Assembly (NCBI RefSeq): GCF_003073045.1
Contig: NC_037597.1
Span: forward strand, 26,488,158-26,552,157
Origin: Pomacea canaliculata
Taxonomy: Eukaryota; Mollusca; Gastropoda; Architaenioglossa; Ampullariidae
DNA length: 64,000 bases
Direction of reading: 5' to 3'
A program made the position numbers and the translations under genes. The notes beneath the pieces are model-generated. The model ran no database searches, had not been told where the DNA came from, and saw nothing but the letters and a program-made list of their open reading frames with translations. Shown one piece after another: positions 8,401 through 60,337 of this stretch. Within the stretch, counting starts at the first letter, position 1, and every line of letters starts with the position of its first letter.

Positions 8401-8973
8401 GAGCCAACTGCACAGGGTGTTGAATGTTCTGGACACATGCCACCCCCTGCCTTGAGTGTCTGTCCATCCATTACCACAGCATCCATCTCCACCTCTCCCG
8501 CAGAGTTCAGCACAGACCCTATGCCTATATTATGTAACAGCAAGCAAAGCTACAATTTTCTTGATCAAAAAGTCTGTGCAAGTACATTTATGGTTAGACT
8601 AACAGGTGGCATGACAAATATGAAATACAAGATCCTTTAAATTGAGAATGGAACAAATAATTATTTGAGTAATGTTTGTAACTGTACTTCTGAAGACAGC
8701 CAGCTCTGAATTACTATAAACTATGATTATACTTGTGAAGCTGCATGTGCAAAAACAGAATAATGCCTTCTTACCTGCATCAAAAACTGGATTATCCTCC
8801 ATAAGAGACACTGCAGCAACAACAGCATCAACAGCTGTTCCTCCTTGCTGTAAAATTCTGAAGCCTTCTTTCACCGCCAGTTTGACTCCAGTCACACTGG
8901 CTTCAGCCACAGTGTCAGGAATGGCCCAAGCACCCCCATGCACTGCTATCACTGGATGTTGAGTGCTGTTCAT
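5492..8973 (-). CDS. ASRGL1: Isoaspartyl peptidase/L-asparaginase (ASRGL1-like), six coding exons, one frame disruption
   Basis: This is a Ntn-hydrolase that hydrolyses L-asparagine and isoaspartyl dipeptides in the cytosol and activates itself by cleavage before a catalytic threonine. Minus-strand exons: 8973-8775, 8524-8380, 8023-7867, 7078-6948, 6541-6431, 5694-5492. The N-terminus reads [13 protein letters not shown], the fold's signature; the catalytic region reads [13 protein letters not shown] (Thr at the new N-terminus of the beta chain), followed by ATSTGG, GRVGDSP and [11 protein letters not shown]. The start is the ATG at 8973; an upstream GTG in frame is not used. Discounting one extra G in exon 2 (C run at 8443-8447 on the plus strand), the exons total 945 nt, or 314 residues, close to the 308 of human ASRGL1. 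The intron after 6431 begins with GC. The exon 2 donor (A|gtggct) is weak and chosen by alignment and phase. Confidence 0.9.
6429..6431 (-). other. Non-canonical GC splice donor in ASRGL1
   Basis: The minus strand reads GCAG|gcaagc at the end of exon 5, and the next exon begins after tgacag at 5694. Joining them gives MNAGMHAEE in frame, as the family alignment requires. No GT in the vicinity restores the frame. The donor matches the known GC-AG consensus (AG|GCAAGT) in all but the last base. Confidence 0.75.
7372..7699 (+). mobile_element. tRNA-derived SINE with 12-bp target-site duplication
   Basis: The body at 7384-7687 begins with a tRNA-like promoter: an A-box-like segment (GGTGGCGCAACGGTTAGTG) and a B-box-like GGTTCATTTC about 50 bases further on. 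It ends in a run of about 19 A. It is flanked by the perfect direct repeat AATTGGCCTCCT at 7372-7383 and 7688-7699, which is the target-site duplication. It lies in an ASRGL1 intron, in the opposite orientation to the gene. Related copies are at 12233-12278 and 23505-23653. Confidence 0.9.
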
Positions 8974-11900
8974 ACTAGGTTTTTTTTGCACCTTCCAGTA
9001 CTAGTGATTCCAACTCTTACAGCTTCTGCACGGCCCACTGTAGCTACTCCTCTTTCTATCAACCAGTCTTTTCTCCAATTGTTAGTTGACAAATCCTTTT
9101 GTTAACTGCTGTATACATTAGTCAGTTTAAACACTGAAAGACAAAGCTTAAAATGGTCAAAAACAAAGTCTTCAGTACAAGATAATATATCCACGTTGTT
9201 CTCAGTGACTGTCATGGCCATGCTTGTAATAAAATCTGCTTTTTCTATGCATCTTATGCTAGATTTCCTTGCTTACCAAAAAATCTAGAATACTAAGAAA
9301 TCCATTTGATTCAGTGTAGCACTGTTGGATGTGTTGTCAAAATTAAACGTGAAATATTTCATTCTTCTTTTAAAAGTTTTGTATTTTCTCAGGAAGTTGG
9401 AAAGTGATTTGCTAGGCATTGAAATGTTGGAGTGTTTACTTCTGCACCCCAGAAATGAATGTTAATTCCACCAACCCTTGGTTAACTATTTTGAAAAATA
9501 TGACTTGACACCTTGACCCCGGCCATGGAAATTCATTTTTTTTTTTAAATTCAAAAATTTATATCAGGTTATTCGGCGGTTCTTTGCCGATGAATGCCAC
9601 CAAACTAGATTCATTGCTTCTTATGCATACAGAAGAAAGAATCAGCATTGTTTACTAATATAGACGTAGCATTGACATGCAGGTCAGGGCATTTACATCT
9701 CTACAGACCTTCCCTACAGTTCATAAAAATATCAGCATTTCTGCCATTCACAAAATTCAATTTCAGTTCCTTAAGCTAGTTTGACCATGTCATTATCTAC
9801 TGATATCTATCAAGTTTGCAGTATTACAGATTTTTTACCAAAAGTTAATATATCCTTACTTGAGAGTGGCATTGAATGGAGAAAATTTTCAACAGGTACA
9901 GTAAACGAAAGTGTCATTCCTCCTGATGGTATGCATGCACTTTTATATCTTAGTGCGGACTTTGCTCTTTAAAGTGCATGGTCATACTTTAACACTACTG
10001 TCCACATTAATATTAATCTGCCCTACTATCAATGAAAGCAGCCTGTGACTATGATTGTTACAAGCACATTTATCTCAAAGAGTTCATGAGGACTGGTCCA
10101 GTGACACCATTCCCTAAACTTCTTGTTCCTAATCCCCAGTGGACTGGCAGGTTACATAGGGAATCTGCAGGCAGAGTTATTCACTACACTGCTGAAGATA
10201 TATTAGACACTCAAGCCCACATGGTAGCTGTGCTTAAGACTCTTTTCTGAGTTATGTGGGCCTAGACTATTAATTTATTAGTAATTTACTAAAAACTTTG
10301 GCAAACTTAGCGTATGTGATGAGATGTCTCTTGATATCACTTTTTTGAGTAATATGCATGGACAACCAAAATGATAAAGTTTGCAATTCATTAAATGCCT
10401 AGTTCTTACAGATTAAGAAAAGGTTAGAGTTTCGACTCTGCAAGCCATCAGTAGTTTTGTAAGTTATTAACTGCAATAGTGTTCTGCAAGCTAAGACAGT
10501 TTGTAACTCACCACTTGATATCTTAAAAGCCAAACTCTCTGTAACATCAGTGTCACAGACGCCTGCTCTCACCAGAGCAACACACACATGACGTCTATAC
10601 GCATTCTTTCAACACACTAAACAATGATTGCCTGAGGCTGTCCAAATCATGTTATTAAGTTGCTCAGGACTACAGAATAGAACCACAGATAAGTATATTC
10701 ACACAAAAATGTCTCAACCCACTGTTCCTTAGGGAAGATAGTGAAAACCATCTCAGATAAGTAAACGTACATGTAATGCATAATGCGATAGCTCGGTACT
10801 CTCTTAAGTTGCCTGTAACCATACTCACATAGGGCTGTCGCCCTTCGCCTCAGAATACAGTTTGAATACATAGCAAGAGATTTTTCACAGTATGGCTCCA
10901 AGATACAGTGAGTGCTTCAGATTTACTTGAAGAGGTTGGTCATGCACTCGTGTCTGGTTTATTTCAAAATATACAAGACCTCTGAACTTACATTTTCTAA
11001 TTCCTGACACTATGTGCTATGATGCTTATTTGATTTTATCGAGACATCCAACATTATGGATTACACAAAACAATTATAAATTTTGTATCTAATGGTAAAG
11101 ATGGAGGCTGTGATTTTTCTATTTCATCAATATAAAGTCTGAAAGCCAGCTTCAATAAACCAATGATGGCAAAACTAACATAAATCTTAACAAGCTCTTG
11201 GCCACAAGATAAAAGTTTCAGTCAAGTTCATTCAGTACACTGCCAAAAGAAAGTGTACTATATGTTAATTAAAAAAAGTAAAAGAAAGGTAAGTCTTGCA
11301 AGTTAGGAACAATCAGTACAAAGCCCACCATTTCTCATTAAGTGCACAGCTTAGAAAAGTAGGTACTAAATAAATCCTTACAATATAAACAATGAAATAT
11401 TTATTTCATATAAAATCTAAATGTAAGGTCGTAAACTGCATAAGCCATTCATACATGGACTGTTCTGTTGTATGCTTTGTGTATTGAGTACACCTTTTAA
11501 TAGTGTTCGCTTAAAGTCTTCTTTTCCTACATTGTTCATTTTGGGATTATTCAGCATCATGAACAAGTATCTTGCCATACCCTCTCTTTATTCTCATAGC
11601 TCCATATTTAGCGTAAGCGCTCAATAAAAATATGGAATATTCAAACTCAGAATTTTTTTGTTTGGTTAAGATGACCAGAAAATGGACCTGCTCATATGTC
11701 CCGCTTTCTGGCTTTCTGGCCATCAATGTTCCTTCGGAAAACGTGATTCGGCGTCTTTGACGGTTAGAATACGTGTCCGCTTTTTTTGTTTGGTCCTTTC
11801 AAGCACCAGATTGCAACAACTGTATGGACCGAAATTTTATAGAATAAACTTGAAAGAAGTAATTACTTGGCTTGGGGAACAGGATACAACAAGGACGATT

Positions 11901-11986
11901 TGGCTCAATGTCATTTGTCGTTTCACACACACTGACACAAGTAGTTAGAGGAGCAGTACCAAAGTCTTCGTGAAGTAGTCCACACT
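8974..11986. other. Spacer between ASRGL1 and the mitoregulin-like gene
   Basis: No conserved gene was recognised in this 3-kb stretch. A possible untranslated or unknown exon on the minus strand at about 10562-10510 has an acceptor-like GAGAGCAG before it and a strong donor (AAGTG|gtgagt), but it has no family resemblance. An AATAAA on the minus strand (11592-11587), about 400 bases past the mitoregulin-like stop, is a plausible polyadenylation signal for that gene. Confidence 0.35.
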
Positions 11987-11987
11987 C

Positions 11988-12167
11988 TCACGTTGTCGAC
12001 GCCAGTTCCAACTGCTTTTTTGCTTCTTCCAACCGATATTTCAATCTGTCCTTTTTCCTCTGTAGGTACTTTACTCTCCAAGACTTGATTTTATAGCCTA
12101 CGTAAACGCCGGCTGCAAATGTCATGACACATAAAACCATCGTCTGCCTCCCTGTAAATTCAGCCAT
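11988..12167 (-). CDS. MTLN: Mitoregulin-like inner-membrane microprotein, 59 aa
   Basis: This is a single-exon frame of 59 residues from an ATG in excellent initiation context (AAC ATG G). An in-frame GTG 27 bases upstream is not needed. Residues 9-25 form one hydrophobic segment with small residues (VMTFAAGVYVGY). They are followed by a strongly basic, amphipathic stretch with KYLQRKKDRLKYRLEEAKKQ and a LELA ending. This layout and many positions match vertebrate mitoregulin (56 aa), including the FAxGV-xGY/W transmembrane core, the YL-xx-RK-xRL basic helix and the K-LxLA C-terminus. Mitoregulin sits in the inner mitochondrial membrane and supports fatty-acid oxidation and respiratory supercomplexes. 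Homology is my inference from residue pattern and length; function in this organism is not shown. It could alternatively be another small coiled-coil membrane protein. Confidence 0.72.
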   Translation of the reverse strand: MAEFTGRQTMVLCVMTFAAGVYVGYKIKSWRVKYLQRKKDRLKYRLEEAKKQLELASTT

Positions 12168-12232
12168 GTTGACTTTCTGGGTAGGGGTAGTCACTCCTGA
12201 TGCGTGTAACTGGGTTATCTATTCATTGTCAC

Positions 12233-12278: not shown

Positions 12279-12735
12279 ATAAAATTACGGTGAAATATTT
12301 TAGTATGTGTTACATAAGAAGCAGTGAAGCCCAATCCCTTTTGCCAACCTCGGCCTGCGGCCATATCCATTTCGGACAGCCGTGTCTGCACTTCACAGTA
12401 AAGGAAATCGCAAAAAATAAAAAAAGGAAAAAAAAAATAGGGAGCAGATATTTTTATCCTAGAAACGTTGTACTTTACCATTAATTCTTATGTAGTAATT
12501 AGTCCACAGGGGATATCTTTTGAGTTGTTTACCCGTTAAACCAGACTTCTGAATACAGTCCGGCTCATCGTTCTAGAGAACACCGAAAGTCAGCGTTTGA
12601 ATTTTGCACTGTGAATCGAAATGTTCGTCCATCGAAAAAAAGATTGGGAAACGCCCCTACGTGGGGATAAATGGTATACTTCTTCTTCCCTTTTTTTTTT
12701 TTTTTTTTATTACTAACATGCCGATTTCCTGCACT
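12279..12735. other. Non-coding spacer
   Basis: No gene was recognised. The segment carries an A-rich run at about 12411-12438 and a T-run of about 19 at 12691-12709, and the short frames here have no family resemblance. Confidence 0.35.
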
Positions 12736-12812
12736 GTGGGCAGAAGTTTCGCGGGCCGGATGGCACCGCGTCGCGGGCCGGATATGGCCCACGGGCCGTA
12801 GGTTGTGCATCC
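12736..12812. mobile_element. hAT-type element end (one terminus recognised)
   Basis: The sequence contains GCGGGCCGGAT twice, then ATGGCCCACGGGCCGTAGG and ends in GCATCCCTG. This is the reverse complement of the usual CAGGG-(GGCCCG)-type hAT MITE start. I could not find the matching left terminus, so only the end is annotated. Confidence 0.5.
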
Positions 12813-12959
12813 CTGTGTTACAGACAATTGTAACCGAGATCGGTTGATGCTGATGGCATTTTAGAAATGGAATTTTTCATATCGTACCTAATTGTCTTGC
12901 TTGTTTTTGAATCAACATATACATGATTTACTTCATCTTTTTGTCAAAGAATTCCACGG

Positions 12960-13443
12960 AGGGGAGGGTAAGTGACCACTCGGCATCCGAGTGTGTGGGG
13001 CAGAGAACTTCTCCTAGTCGACCCACCAGTCGTGAATGGATACCTGACACCATGGAGGGTTGGGGGAAGGCAAAGCAGAGAAAGAGATGGACACCACCCT
13101 CTTAAACTCAGTTTGGGGTCTTTAACACCTCACCCCACAACCCCTACAATGAACTTAAAAAAAAAAAAAAAAAAGAGGAAGTTGGGAGGGGGAACTATAC
13201 CTTTACCTCTTACTTTTTTCTACTCATTATAAAAAGAAGGCTGATAAAACAACTGGAAAAGAGTCCATCATGGACTCTTAAACCCAGAGTGGGGTCTCTA
13301 ACACCTCGCCCCACAGCCCCTACAACGACCTATAAAAAAGTTGATGGGAGAGGGAACCATCTTTACGTCTTACCTTTTTTCTACTCATGAATCATGATGA
13401 AGAGAAGGCTGATAAGACAAAGAGGAAAGACTCCATCCTGGAC
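12960..13443 (+). repeat. Unclassified interspersed repeat containing a tandem duplication of about 170 bp
   Basis: Two diverged direct copies lie at 13101-13276 and 13277-13443. Both contain TTAAAC, then GGGGTCT-TAACACCTC, CCCCACA-CCCCTACAA, CTTTAC-TCTTAC, TTTTTTCTACTCAT, GAAGGCTGATAA and ACTCCATC-TGGAC. The first copy carries an internal run of 17 A. The preceding bases (12966-13100) have a short-repeat-like head with GAATGGATACCTGAC. I cannot assign it to a named family. Confidence 0.65.
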
Positions 13444-15871: not shown

Positions 15872-16858
15872 AATGCCTGTCACCCAACAGACGATCGCAT
15901 TCCCATATGGGAGTTCTATAGTTTTATTTTTACATTAAAATATTCACTTTGATACAAGTATTTTTAATTTGTGTATGTGTGTGTGTGTGAACGTCTACAA
16001 CAGAATAAGGTGCCATAGAATGGGCATCAAAAGCTGCAATGCTCTTCTTTAAATGGTAAACGGATAGGATTTAAAATAAACCTTTACCCACACCGTGGGT
16101 CTCTGAGAACAAAGGTGCAAGTTTCTTTCCACTCGCTTTTAAAGGCGTTTAGATCACAGTTTTATATATGCTATCCTCACACTGTAATTTTCTTCAATAA
16201 AACACCGCTCGAATTCTCCTACCTCTCCTCTCCGTGTCCCATCCCGTGGAAATCCTCAAGGCAATAAAGTCGCGGTAACTTTACACCGCGGGAAAACAAG
16301 TATGTGTTGTCTCCCTTCAAGGGGCCATTCCTTTATTTCATCTGTAAAGCTTTGGTATAGCCTTCTCAGGGCAAAAAAAATTTTTTTTAATCGAATTAAG
16401 CTTAATATTATTGCTTAATCTTAATTATGTTTGAAAATTTTAAACAGTAAGTTTTAAATTTATAAATTTAATCAGACTGATAGCTCCCTCGATGACTTCG
16501 GTTCCATGACGACGCAAGACGCTTTTCCTGACTAGCGTGGTAGGCATGAACGCGTTTGCATGGGTTCTTCTATAGGTTTTATAAAACTTTACAGTGAAAG
16601 CTAAACTGTAAATCTAAATCCATCCATAAAATTGAGCTTTTTAATTTTCGTCTCTGTAATTACCAGAGTAAGAATTAAAAGGCGATCACTATATATACAG
16701 TTCTTGTTCAGACACATATATACGACTCGTTGCAGTATTTGCAACATTTCAACTAAAGTGACCGTAGTCTGTTCCCAAAGATCAGTTAACACAACTTTCA
16801 ACGTTACACAAGGTCGTGCCGACTGTACGTTTATGTGAAAAGGGTACCTGAATCAAAA
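15872..16858. other. Probable 3' UTR of the small gene and 5' flank of the DHHC gene
   Basis: It holds AATAAA at 16196-16201 and 16263-16268, a hairpin-forming CGCGGT/ACCGCG pair around 16271-16290, an A8/T8 run near 16373-16388 and a palindromic ATTAAGCTTAAT just after it. No conserved coding sequence precedes the ATG at 16859. Confidence 0.4.
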
Positions 16859-18058
16859 ATGAATTTGAAGGAACAGGAGACGTCACTGAAAGAAAAACTG
16901 TCACAGCACTACAAGAATCGCAACTTTACCCCACAGCCAAAGGCCATTGTAAGAGCAGGACTTTTCTGGCCAGGATTCATGATATGTTCCCTTTTCTTTG
17001 AGGCTGTAGCTGTCCTTCTTCCCGGGGTGTACAAGTTGCATGGAACAGGAAATCTAGAGGGCCATGGATGGTTTGGGGAAACCTACTGGCTGATGCTTGG
17101 AGTGGTATTGACAACGTTTGTGGAGTCACTGATTAACTGGTGGAGAGTGTACATGGATGTGGCCAATTACGTTCGAAAGGAGACAAAAATGGCTCACTTT
17201 CCACAGTGTCTTGAAACACCTCCAGGTATATCTTTAAAAGCAATACAAGAATTAATTATAGTGAGATCTGATTTTTAACTCTGAAAAATTCTTAAAAGAT
17301 ACATTTTTCTTCTAATATGCATTGATATTTTTGGTAATTGTATGTAGCTTTGCTAAACAGCTATGTTAAAAATTTTGTCTCTATGAAATGTATAGTAATA
17401 GTCTTGAAGCACAGAAAATTGTAAGAGAATTTGTTTTTGTCCCAACTTACTATAGCTTTTTTCTTTCTTTTTGGAAGGTTGGAGGCACTGCCCTACCTGC
17501 CAAGTGGATGCACCTCCACGCTCATTTCATTGTAATATGTGTGGTCGGTGTATCCTCAAACGTGACCACCATTGCTTCTTCACAGGTTCTTGTATTGGCT
17601 ATTACAACCAGAGGCATTTTGTCATTTTCTGCATTTATGTGATATGGGGCAGCTTACTTGCTCTCTACTTGCAACTATCTTACCTCAGCAAATACATGTT
17701 TCCTTTTTTTGAAAATGTGTATGCTTACATCCTCCCATTTACAGTCATGAAGCTCTTTTCTGGTAATTTAACTATCCAATCATTTTTGTTGCTTTTACAT
17801 ACTTATGCTACTGGATTTTGTCTTTTCCTGGGACTTTGGTTCCTACTGTGGCAATTAATCATCATCTTACGTGGCCAGACATCCTATGAGGCATGGAAGA
17901 ACATTCGAGTTTATCATGGCGGCTTGTACAACAATTTTACATCTGTGTTTGGCTCACCACTACAGGCCTGGCTTTTATTTTTTGTACCACTCATGTTGCC
18001 TTTGCAAGGAGATGCTTGTGCATGGAAGATTAGGCCTAAGTCTGAAAAAGGTCATTGA
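16859..18058 (+). CDS. ZDHHC24: DHHC-type palmitoyltransferase, ZDHHC24-like, two exons
   Basis: This integral membrane S-acyltransferase transfers palmitate to protein cysteines. The exons are 16859-17225 and 17478-18058, joined in phase (TPPG|WRHC) to give 315 residues. The order is: a cytosolic N-terminus, transmembrane segments near residues 33-52 and 80-98, then the zinc-binding cysteine-rich domain. That domain has HCPTC, PPRSFHCNMCGRCILKRDHHC (the catalytic DHHC) and a GSCIGYYNQRHF tail. Two or more further membrane segments follow, then RGQTSYE (the TTxE-like motif). All zinc ligands and the active cysteine are present. The RGQT-x-x-E and L-x-GD endings near the C-terminus match ZDHHC24 better than other DHHC subfamilies. 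The start is the first ATG followed by a good frame; an in-frame GTG at 16835 is ignored. Confidence 0.9.
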
Positions 18059-24800: not shown

Positions 24801-27800
24801 GGAATGGTAGCTATACAGAAATCTTGGAGATTCAGCTGTGGATGTAAGGATCTAAAGCTGAAAAAACTTTGTCTTGGTATAGAATTGATCATCAATTGCA
24901 GTGAAAAGAATGTGTATTTCTGATATTTATCCACCTATGATATATAAATATGATGTGCAGGGCAACATATCCATCAACAATGTATAAAACATCAGAAAGG
25001 CATCCCATATCATTTCTATTTGTGATCATTCGCTGCGAGTTCTCATGTCTATGGTCTGGCCACAATACCCATTTGTAAAACAGCCATCTCAATTTATTTA
25101 TTCCATGTGCCATCCCCCTGATCAACTCCACTGGCCACGATGATCACCAGGTAAGGTGACCTAATGCAGTTTACCAACTGCTGCGGTATACTTTTAAAAT
25201 TTCTTATGTGATTCAGCTGTATGATGGTAGTATGTTTTTATAACTGCCTCAGCAGATGAATAATGGTTTAAAGCACATTCCAAACCTTATGCATGCAAGC
25301 ATCTATGCACACATGAACACACCAGAATGAGAAAAGATTTTTGGATGGTTTTTTTTTATAGATGTGTGTGTGTTGGGATGGGGTGGGAGGATATCAAAAT
25401 AAGCTTTCTACTCACCTCTGTTTGACTGAAGTAAGGTCACGGCCCTGTGAACGCCTTAATTTTTCTCTTTGAATTTCATCTTGTTTTTCTTTTTCTTCTC
25501 TTTCAACTCTTCTCTGTTTTAATTTTTCTATCAATCTGTTGTCAAAGAAAAAAAGTGTAATAGTAATAAGAGAGTTGGGAGAGAGAAGGAATTTATAGGT
25601 TTTTCTCTTGCATCTAAAGAAGAATTAACTTGCAGTCACCAACACAAACACAAAATATTTATGCCTTTTACAAGAATGATAAGGAATTTGTGTTATTTAT
25701 AAATTTTAAATGTATAAATTCAAACACGTTACCATTAATGGGACTAGATTTTGTGTGTAATAGTAGATCCAAACAAACACCAAGTAAAAGTAATGTTTGC
25801 AATGTGCCAAATATCAATAGTCATTTTGCCACTGGTTACAATCTAATCCTAGTTTTCCTGACATACAACTTCTTTAAAGCAGTTTTTTAAAAGTCCTGAA
25901 ACAATCTCACTTTTCCTTCTGCTGTGTTTTTTCCTCTTCTGTTAAAGGCTTGATCTCATCTGTGGTCTCAGAAAACATCTCATGCTGGGTGCGTGCAGCA
26001 TGAGCCTGAACCTCTGCCTCATTCTTTAGCATTTTCCCACATCTGAAGAATTAATTTTTTTAAAGAAAAGAATGCATAAAAAAGGATCTGTAGTTAAACA
26101 GCCCCTATAAAATATTTTCATGACAGCCATGCAGACTGATACTACTTAAGGGTAGGTTTTTTTTTTTTAATGAAAAGAATGCATAAAAAAAGGATCTATA
26201 GTTAAACAGCCCCTATAAAATATTTTCATGACAGCCATGCAGACTGATACTACTTAAGGGTAGTTTTTAAGAAAGAACAAATGGTCCTGAGATAAAATGG
26301 TGCTAAATAAAAAGGCAGCAAAATTATTCTTCTATGATAGTATTGCTTTAATGATGTGTTTTCTTTACAGAGACTTAATGAATTATTTTCTTTTAGATGT
26401 GAATGTACAGCTGCAACTTTTTTCCCCAAAAGACTGAGTATAGTTTTTTATAACAACAAAGACACCAAATCTAATAACATTATGCCTTTCTATCAGTAAC
26501 TTTGTCCCTGTGGGACCCCGGGGTATGCTTGCCTAGCAAGCATTGTAAGAATAGGGTCCCTGCCATCCAGCCAGGCATGTCGTAAGAGGCGACTAAGGTG
26601 GACACCTCACCTAGAGGTAAAATAGGTTGTGGTAGGGCTAACAACCCCACCATGTAAAAAAAAATCATGTTACAGAAACTAAAACCAGAGAACTCGTCAC
26701 AGATGGCGGAGGTAATGAAGCACACCAGGAGACTGGACTAATGACGGACGACAGCCAAACCCGAAAGGGAGCTGGCGCCCCGACAGCGGATTTACTTAAG
26801 CCGAGGCAAAAGTTGAGGGTGGGGTGCTGGAACGTCCAGACCTTGTACCAGACTGGCAGGATGCTCCAATTAGTCAAGGAGTTTGACAACTACAACTTGG
26901 ACATCCTGGGAGTCAGTGAGGTCAGATGGACCGGCACGGGAAAGAGGAGACTAGCGTCAGGACATACCATCTTGTTCTCAGGAAGATCAGACGCTCAGCA
27001 CTCTGAAGGAGTAGCTCTACTCCTCAACAAGAAAACAGAAAAGGCACTGCTGGAATGGAAGCCTTATGGACCCAGGCTTTTGAGAGCAAGATTCCATTCA
27101 AAGTACACCAAGCTGACAGTGCTAGCTTGCTATGCACCAACAAATGACTCTGAGGCAGAAGACAAGGATGCTTTTTACGATCAGCTCCAGGCAGCCTCAG
27201 AAAGCGTTCCAGCCCACGACATGTTGCTCATCATCGGCGATCTCAATGCCAAGGTGGGAAGTGACAACACCTGCAGGGAGCATGTCATGGGCAAACATGG
27301 AATCGGAACCATCAACGACAACGGAGAGAGACTGGCAGACTTTTGTGAAGAAAACAACCTACTGATTGGAGGCACACTCTTCCCACACAAAGACATCCAC
27401 AAGGCAACATGGACATCACCAGATGGGATCACAAAGAACCAGATAGACCATGTCATCATCAACCGAAAATGGAGGAGCTCACTTCAAGATGTTAGAGCCT
27501 ACAGAGGAGCAGACATTGCCAGTGACCACACTCTTGTGATAGCCACAGTTTCTCTGAAGCTGCGTCGATCACGAGGAAAACAGGCACATCAGCAGAGAGT
27601 GGACTCCGGCAAACTGAAAAATCCAGCCACCGAAAGGGCCTTTGCTATGGAAGTAAAGAACAGGTTCCAGGCACTAGGAGAGCAACAAGAGATGACCTTA
27701 GACGACTTCAATCGAGTCTTACAGGAATCAGGAGAGAAAATACTGGGTTTCCAACGGAAAAAGAAAGAACAGTGGATCAGAGAAGAGACATGGAAGAAGA

Positions 27801-30800
27801 TAGAAGAGAGAAAGTCAGCCAAGCAAAGAATCAACAGCACCAGATCTGAACGCCTGAAGGAACAACACAGACAAAGATACGCAAAACTGAACAAAGAGGT
27901 GAAGAGGATGACAAGAACCGACAAAAGATACCACATAGAGAAACTGGCAGATGAAGCAGAAAATGCAGCAAGTAAAAATGACCTGAAGACACTGTACAAG
28001 ATAAACAAACAGCTAAACAACGGGTTTAAGAACAGTGATGTGCCAGTGAAAGACGTGAACGGTAATGTCGTCGAGGGAGAGGCAGGAAAACTACAGCGCT
28101 GGAGGGAACATTTTGAGTCAGTTCTGAACAGACCAGATCCCCTCAGCTTGCAGACATCCAGCCAGCAGCTATAGACCTTGACATCTGCACAGACCACCAA
28201 GCCTGGAAGAAGTGACAGCAGCAGTCAAGACAATGAAGAGCGGCAAAGCACCAGGGGCAGATGGAATAACAGCAGAGATGTTGAAAGCAGACGTGAATGT
28301 GACAGCTCCCAAGCTGACTGAAATCTTCAGGCAAATTTGGGAATCAGGGCAGGTCCCTGTTGCGTGGGAAGACAGGGCTCATCTTCAAGTTACCCAAGAA
28401 AGGAGATCTTGGAGACTGCAATAATTGGAGGGGCATAACACTTCTTTCCCTCACCAGCAAGGTCTTCAGCAAGATTGTTTTGTCAAGACTGACGACAACT
28501 CTTGAGAAAGACCTCCGACCACAGCAAGCAGGATTTCGCCCTGGGCGATCCTGCTCCAAACACATCTTCATTCTGCGACAGATTCTGGAGCAGTGCAACG
28601 AGTGGAACACACCGCTGTACATCAATTTCATCGACCTGGAGAAGGCTTTTGACAGCATCCACCGCGAGTCCTTATGGAAGATCCTGAGGCATTACGGAGT
28701 CCCTGCAAAACTTGTTCAGGTCATTGCAATGCTGTACAGCGACTTCAAATCCCAGGTTGTCTGTGACACGGAGCTCACAGACCCCTTCAACGTCAGTACC
28801 GGGGTGAAGCAGGGCTGCATTCTGTCGCCGTTCCTCTTCATCCTGGCCATGGACTGGATCATGAAGACTTCCACCGACAGCGAGAGGAGAGGGCTCAGAT
28901 GGACCATGACTATGACAGCAACAACAGCGCTGGAAGACTTAGACTTTGCTGATGACATTGCCCTGTTGTCACACCGCCACCAAGACATGCAGGAAAAAAC
29001 AAAGGCCTTCTCAGAAACAGCTGGAAACCTTGGCTTGAAGGTCAGCACAAAAAAGACTAACAGTATGAGAGTGAACGCCAGAGTCCAAGACAGCATCAAA
29101 CTAAATGGAGAAGAGATTGAGGAAGTTGACAGTTTCACCTATCTTGGGTCCAAAATGTCAAACACTGGGGATGCGGAGGTAGAGATTCGAGCCCGACTGG
29201 CGAAAGCCAGCCACGCCTTCGCCTCACTCAGGAGCACATGGAAGACAAAAAACATCAGCCAGAAGATCAAGCTGAGAATCTTCAAGTCAAATGTGATCAG
29301 CACCCTCCTTTACGGATCAGAATCTTGGAAGATGACCAAAACCATCAGTAACAAGCTTGACGTCTTCCAAAACAGATGCCTCAGGCGCATACTTAACATC
29401 TTTTGGCCAAACACCATCACCAACGAAGAACTCCACCGAAGAACTGAAACCAAGTCCATCACCACGCAGGTTCAACGAAGGCGTTGGCGATGGATTGGAC
29501 ATGTGCTCCGCCAGCAGACAGCAGACCTTTCCAGAGTCGCCCTACGATGGACTCCAGACGGCCAAAGAAAACGAGGCCGCCCAAAGGAAACTTGGAGAAG
29601 AACAGTGGAAAGGGAGATGAAAGGAAAGGGCTGGACATGGGGTCACCTAGAGCGGGTTTCAGCCGATCGACATCGGTGGCGGACTCTGGTTGAGGCCTTA
29701 TGTGCAACCTGATGCACGAAGAGGAATAGATAGATCAGTAACTTTGAGACTGTTTGTTCAGCTTGGTTTTTGTTTCTTTACTTTTTTCATGGGATAGCTT
29801 TAAATACTGTTTATGAGAGAGGCTCTTAAATCTATGATGTCTGGAGAGGTGCAAGTATTTAATTTTACAAAATATGACAGCCATCATAAAAGCTTGTTGT
29901 CGATTAGAAAACTTTAAAGACTTTTTCAGCATTAAAACCAATTATTAATCCTAAATGGCATAAGCAAAATTAATGTTGAGATAAAAAGTTCCACTTTTTT
30001 CTCTAAGAAACATGAAGTTATCCTGATGGTTCACACCTACTCATCACATTTTAAAGATTTAGCTTGTTGCTGAGATTGTGTGCTGTCCCCGCTTGCAGCA
30101 CCTGCCTCAGCATCTATAACACTGTCATTGGCAGTGTTCTCTCCTGGAAACAGAAGAAGAAATTCATCAATTATACCACAGATCATAAGGTAATATATAT
30201 TGCGAGTTATATTAATACAACAGTAGTGTTAGTAATTTTTCCGGTCTGAGTGATTAAAATATTTATTTCATTAACCTTCCTTTTTAAGTTTATAAAAAAG
30301 TTTATATTAACATAGTGAAATAAAAGTGTCATTCACAAATACCATACCTATAACATGACCCTCTTGATTTGGAATCTCCAATGGTATATCAACATCTGGG
30401 TCATCTTCATGTGCCATAATCCTAGAAATATAGTAAAATATGAGTACTTCATAAATAATCTGCTTGGAATGAAATACAATAGCAATTTTTTTCCTGCAAT
30501 TTAAAAATAAATAAAAATTCTCACATCATGACCACTGGAAAGTAGAGAGCCAATAAAACAATAAAAGATAAACACTTAGAGCCCATTAACAATAACATGT
30601 AATTTTTTTAAATATTCATTAATCTGAGGTATATATTATGATAAGTAAAATTAACATCTGCATCATACCAAAAATAAAACACATACCAGTCCATTGCAAG
30701 CTGCACACCCTTGTAGCCAGTCACTGCCAAAGCTTTCTCCCTGTATCACACAAACCCTACATATACATGTCTTCAGCAGATTTGACAGAATACCAAAAAA

Positions 30801-33569: not shown

Positions 33570-33772
33570 GAGCGTCTGCATTTTCCTGACGGGTTTGCAG
33601 AATATTCACATTACAACTTCCGTGATATTTTTTTATCGTTGTGTGTTCTCCTGGATTCTGTGGCCGTTTTGCGGATGGTTGAAGATCTAGATGCCTTCCA
33701 AACGTACGGATTCGGATAGACTGGACCCTTAACTGTTCGTCTGTGTCATTCGCGGAGCGACTCGAGGCGAAA

Positions 33773-60337
<26,565 letters not shown>

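Follow-up and report, generated by a model that had tools for sequence, protein, structure and literature searches.

A short open reading frame on the minus strand, at positions 11988..12167, raises the question of whether the gastropod Pomacea canaliculata carries a gene for mitoregulin (MTLN). The window, that is, the whole 64,000-nucleotide stretch of DNA analysed here, is part of contig 8 of the genome assembly. According to a 2025 review, invertebrates are believed to lack mitoregulin (PMC11920140), and another article lists MTLN among the proteins that evolved during vertebrate evolution (PMC10032668). The first-pass annotation, which described the family as known mainly from vertebrates, agrees with both. 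PMC7214441 gives an identity of 71% between the mammalian and zebrafish proteins and states that the mouse protein rescues zebrafish. PMC13303939 names mitoregulin in its references only. In the literature that we searched, outside which most subscription journals lie, no article linked mitoregulin with molluscs or bilaterians, and none dealt with a "mitoregulin-like" protein. On the sequence evidence set out below, we consider it highly likely that P. canaliculata has a protein-coding gene here and that its product is an orthologue of mitoregulin.

The frame opens with an ATG at 12167 and closes with a TGA ending at 11988, giving 59 codons on the minus strand. These limits coincide exactly with those in the first-pass annotation, which left the strand unstated; on the plus strand, 11988-12167 contains in-frame stops. 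The start codon lies in the favourable initiation context that had been proposed for it (GTCAACATGG, with A at -3 and G at +4), and an in-frame TAG is located 54 nt before the ATG (12219..12221, minus). Downstream on the same strand, AATAAA at 11587..11592, 395 nt past the stop, is a candidate poly(A) signal, although so short a motif is no proof of a transcript end, and ATTAAA follows at 11501. A mitoregulin gene is expected to be short, some 56 codons that run without interruption between a start and a stop, and the snail frame runs unbroken from ATG to TGA. The length of the frame is uninformative, as frames of 59 or more codons that begin with ATG number 107 in the window, this one included; it is the sequence (Pfam E 2.3e-14) that sets it beyond chance.

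The Pfam model Mitoregulin (PF22002), which has 56 positions and a curated cut-off of 27 bits, aligns its positions 2-56 with residues 2-56 of the snail protein at a score of 53.4 bits, about twice the cut-off. The four other Pfam families that touch the protein are stray matches (E 0.022-0.55), all under their own cut-offs. On PF22002, the 56-residue human mitoregulin used in our comparisons scores 106.8 bits. The alignment of the snail and human proteins spans 56 residues and needs no gap; 19/56 are identical (34%), and the BLOSUM62 score is 87, against maxima of 50 in 2,000 region-preserving shuffles and 42 in 2,000 full shuffles. The same 56 letters as in the human query, unnamed there, stand in a passage of the appendix of PMC11351124. 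The residues kept between the two species include F-A-x-G-V-x-x-G, Y-L, K-x-R-L and L-x-L-A. A curated profile matched at about twice its cut-off over nearly the whole length, together with the gap-free human alignment, supports the proposed place in the mitoregulin family, and the suggested parallel with the vertebrate protein in length (59 and 56 residues) and in the order of features holds as well. The family very probably gains a new member in the snail protein, though a distant one.

The anatomy of the predicted protein follows the same plan. Its most hydrophobic 17-residue stretch, residues 9-25 (12093..12143, minus; mean Kyte-Doolittle 1.68), is a probable transmembrane segment with an FAAGV-x-VGY core. 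Residues 31-56 (12000..12077, minus), basic by charge count and helical in the structural model, form a putative basic helix ending in LELA. From residue 26 onward, 12 K/R are counted against 4 D/E, and the snail protein shows the N-terminal hydrophobic segment and the positive C-terminus that mark mitoregulin. The FAAGV-x-VGY core and KYLQRKKDRLKYRL, both singled out in the first-pass annotation, are present in the translation. LELA, said there to be terminal, is also present but is followed by STT. The helix had been called basic and amphipathic; its basic character stands, but its hydrophobic moment is not above that of shuffled sequences. For KYLQRKKDRLKYRL, a 14-mer, the moment of 0.459 was attained by 20.6% of 10,000 shuffles, and that of residues 28-56, a 29-mer, by 53% of 5,000 shuffles. 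Since human mitoregulin likewise fails both tests (44.5% and 53% of shuffles), amphipathicity does not seem to be a defining feature of the family. The AlphaFold2 model computed from the single sequence is one continuous helix over residues 6-58 (mean pLDDT 87.3, pTM 0.42).

A search of the genome (440,159,624 bases in 24 contigs) returned one full match, the frame itself, and the next three matches were weak (E 1.45-3.34); more diverged mitoregulin copies may exist elsewhere in the genome. No relative was confirmed in the prokaryote, viral and plasmid sequence collections, all non-animal, and the search of solved structures gave only three stray matches (E 2.8-3). Six further open frames of the window were scanned, and five of them match a Pfam family at E up to 0.001. 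Three of the five are exons, for an asparaginase (8997-8599, minus), a DHHC palmitoyltransferase (17456-18055, plus) and a C2 domain (33683-34156, plus), and the last resembles the N-terminal part of a novel-type protein kinase C; the other two are pieces of a retrotransposon. The open frame 16790-17275 had no family match. The mitoregulin frame is thus flanked by exons of eukaryotic type, with DHHC and C2 on one side and asparaginase on the other, and these neighbours, together with the distance from the human sequence, make bacterial or vertebrate contamination unlikely.

The window also contains the remains of a non-LTR retrotransposon (26642-29709, plus), in which the endonuclease (E 2.5e-12) and the reverse transcriptase (E 3e-36) lie in different reading frames. 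A stretch at 12690-12830 is richer in GC, and its end resembles hAT-type transposon ends. Two interleaved imperfect direct repeats occupy 13099-13443, one with copies of 65 nt that are 85% alike and 176 apart, the other with copies of 52 nt that are 81% alike and 168 apart. For P. canaliculata, a recent burst of DNA/hAT-Charlie elements is described in PMC6129957.

Is the frame the whole of the gene? The mitoregulin frame could instead belong to a longer or bicistronic transcript, for instance spliced near its end or serving as an upstream frame of the asparaginase gene; this is compatible with an orthologue but alters the gene model. A splice-donor-like AAC|GTGAGA, noticed by eye and unscored, overlaps the stop codon (11986-11994, minus), so that the real C-terminus could differ after LELAST. 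The asparaginase-2 family exon at 8599-8997, with which the coding sequence of its gene seems to open, lies 3 kb downstream on the same strand, and a transcript common to the two is possible but unsupported. On the other hand, the AATAAA at 11592 could terminate a short transcript first, and the PF22002 profile ends at LELA/LDLA, so that no further exon is needed. We regard a longer transcript as unlikely.

The frame could also be a dead remnant, descended from a mitoregulin gene whose expression has been lost, and the repeats nearby would suit such a history. Nevertheless, the start and stop are intact and the profile match is nearly of whole length; the favourable start context, the upstream in-frame stop and the downstream AATAAA are in place as well. 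A relic would hardly keep 59 unbroken codons at 34% identity to human, and we consider this explanation very improbable.

Proteins of this composition do give stray Pfam matches. Seventy region-preserving shuffles (40 of the human and 30 of the snail protein) matched 46 families; among the 25 listed, the best E was 0.002 and MTLN was absent, so that a weaker MTLN match is possible among the other 21. The reversed protein reached an E of 0.0027. MTLN was matched at E up to 10 by none of six controls (four region-preserving shuffles, one full shuffle and one reversal). That a random frame with a transmembrane segment and a basic helix resembles mitoregulin by chance or convergence is thus extremely improbable, even with the four other stray matches of the snail protein, since its E lies about eleven orders of magnitude under the best listed shuffle match and its alignment with the human protein is gap-free over 56 residues.

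If the snail frame is an orthologue, mitoregulin would date at least from the ancestor that snails share with vertebrates. Provided that descent was vertical, we infer that the gene was present before the protostome-deuterostome split, and the family probably has an earlier origin than the literature gives it. From this one genome, and again if descent was vertical, mitoregulin may not be a vertebrate invention, and may have been overlooked since annotation drops short frames. Other invertebrate members, or a record of the snail protein in protein databases, may exist.

By analogy with vertebrates, the snail may use mitoregulin as they do. Going by the vertebrate protein, the hydrophobic half at the N-terminus would hold the peptide in a mitochondrial membrane, with the basic C-terminal helix outside that membrane, where it may meet acidic lipid (cardiolipin). 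The same helix may also meet membrane partners, such as CYB5R3 or HADHA/HADHB, proteins of fatty-acid oxidation. By homology, the peptide may help to set mitochondrial lipid composition, cardiolipin above all, and in this way act on complex I-linked respiration. PMC11920140 describes a consensus on the lipid effect of vertebrate mitoregulin, and a dispute over the inner versus outer membrane, the partners and respiration. If the assignment is true, the residues constant between snail and human (19/56) point to what should be tested in the dispute over membrane, partners and function, and tests of mitoregulin in invertebrates become possible.

We also examined an origin from bacterial LapA, because the snail and human proteins touch the LapA_dom model PF06305 in one register. 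The snail protein matches with residues 11-54 on positions 21-64 (E 0.022, 15.1 bits) and human mitoregulin with residues 11-53 on positions 21-63 (E 4.7e-5, 23.6 bits); both scores lie under the cut-off of 28 bits. The LapA profile was touched by 1 of the 70 shuffles at E 0.042, close to the snail value, and in the reverse direction E. coli LapA matched the MTLN profile at E 0.91. When the snail and human proteins were aligned by hhalign with 81 LapA sequences (that of E. coli and the 80 best of 138 loci, all closely related in sequence, one labelled Chryseobacterium), the score was 26.57, with a probability of 54.6% and the program's own E of 0.00012. Of 100 column shuffles, 3 attained this score, the highest shuffle probability being 69.1%. 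The pairwise LapA score was 38 for both proteins, a value that region shuffles attained in 25 of 1,000 cases for snail and in 69 of 1,000 for human. An origin of mitoregulin from bacterial LapA thus mostly failed its controls. We keep LapA as a lead because one result, the human match to PF06305, exceeds everything among the 70 shuffles, whose best LapA match is 0.042 and whose best listed match is 0.002. It seems to us very improbable that mitoregulin both predates the protostome-deuterostome split and goes back to a LapA-like protein in the ancestor of mitochondria, as a descendant of that protein's second membrane stretch and basic tail.

In comparison with known systems, the likeness to LapA / YciS concerns the basic tail of that protein and the second of its hydrophobic stretches, and FAAGF-x-IGW of E. 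coli LapA corresponds in position to the core of mitoregulin; mitoregulin is without the first hydrophobic stretch. The snail protein and known mitoregulin (MTLN, also LINC00116, MOXI, MPM and LEMP; PF22002) are of similar length (59 and 56 residues) with a single N-terminal hydrophobic stretch, and they have in common F-A-x-G-V-x-x-G, the basic C-terminal helix and L-[DE]-L-A near the end. The snail protein differs in its three extra C-terminal residues (STT), in its identity of 34% and in its mollusc host. What would be new is this unexpected host outside the vertebrates, the family itself being already known.
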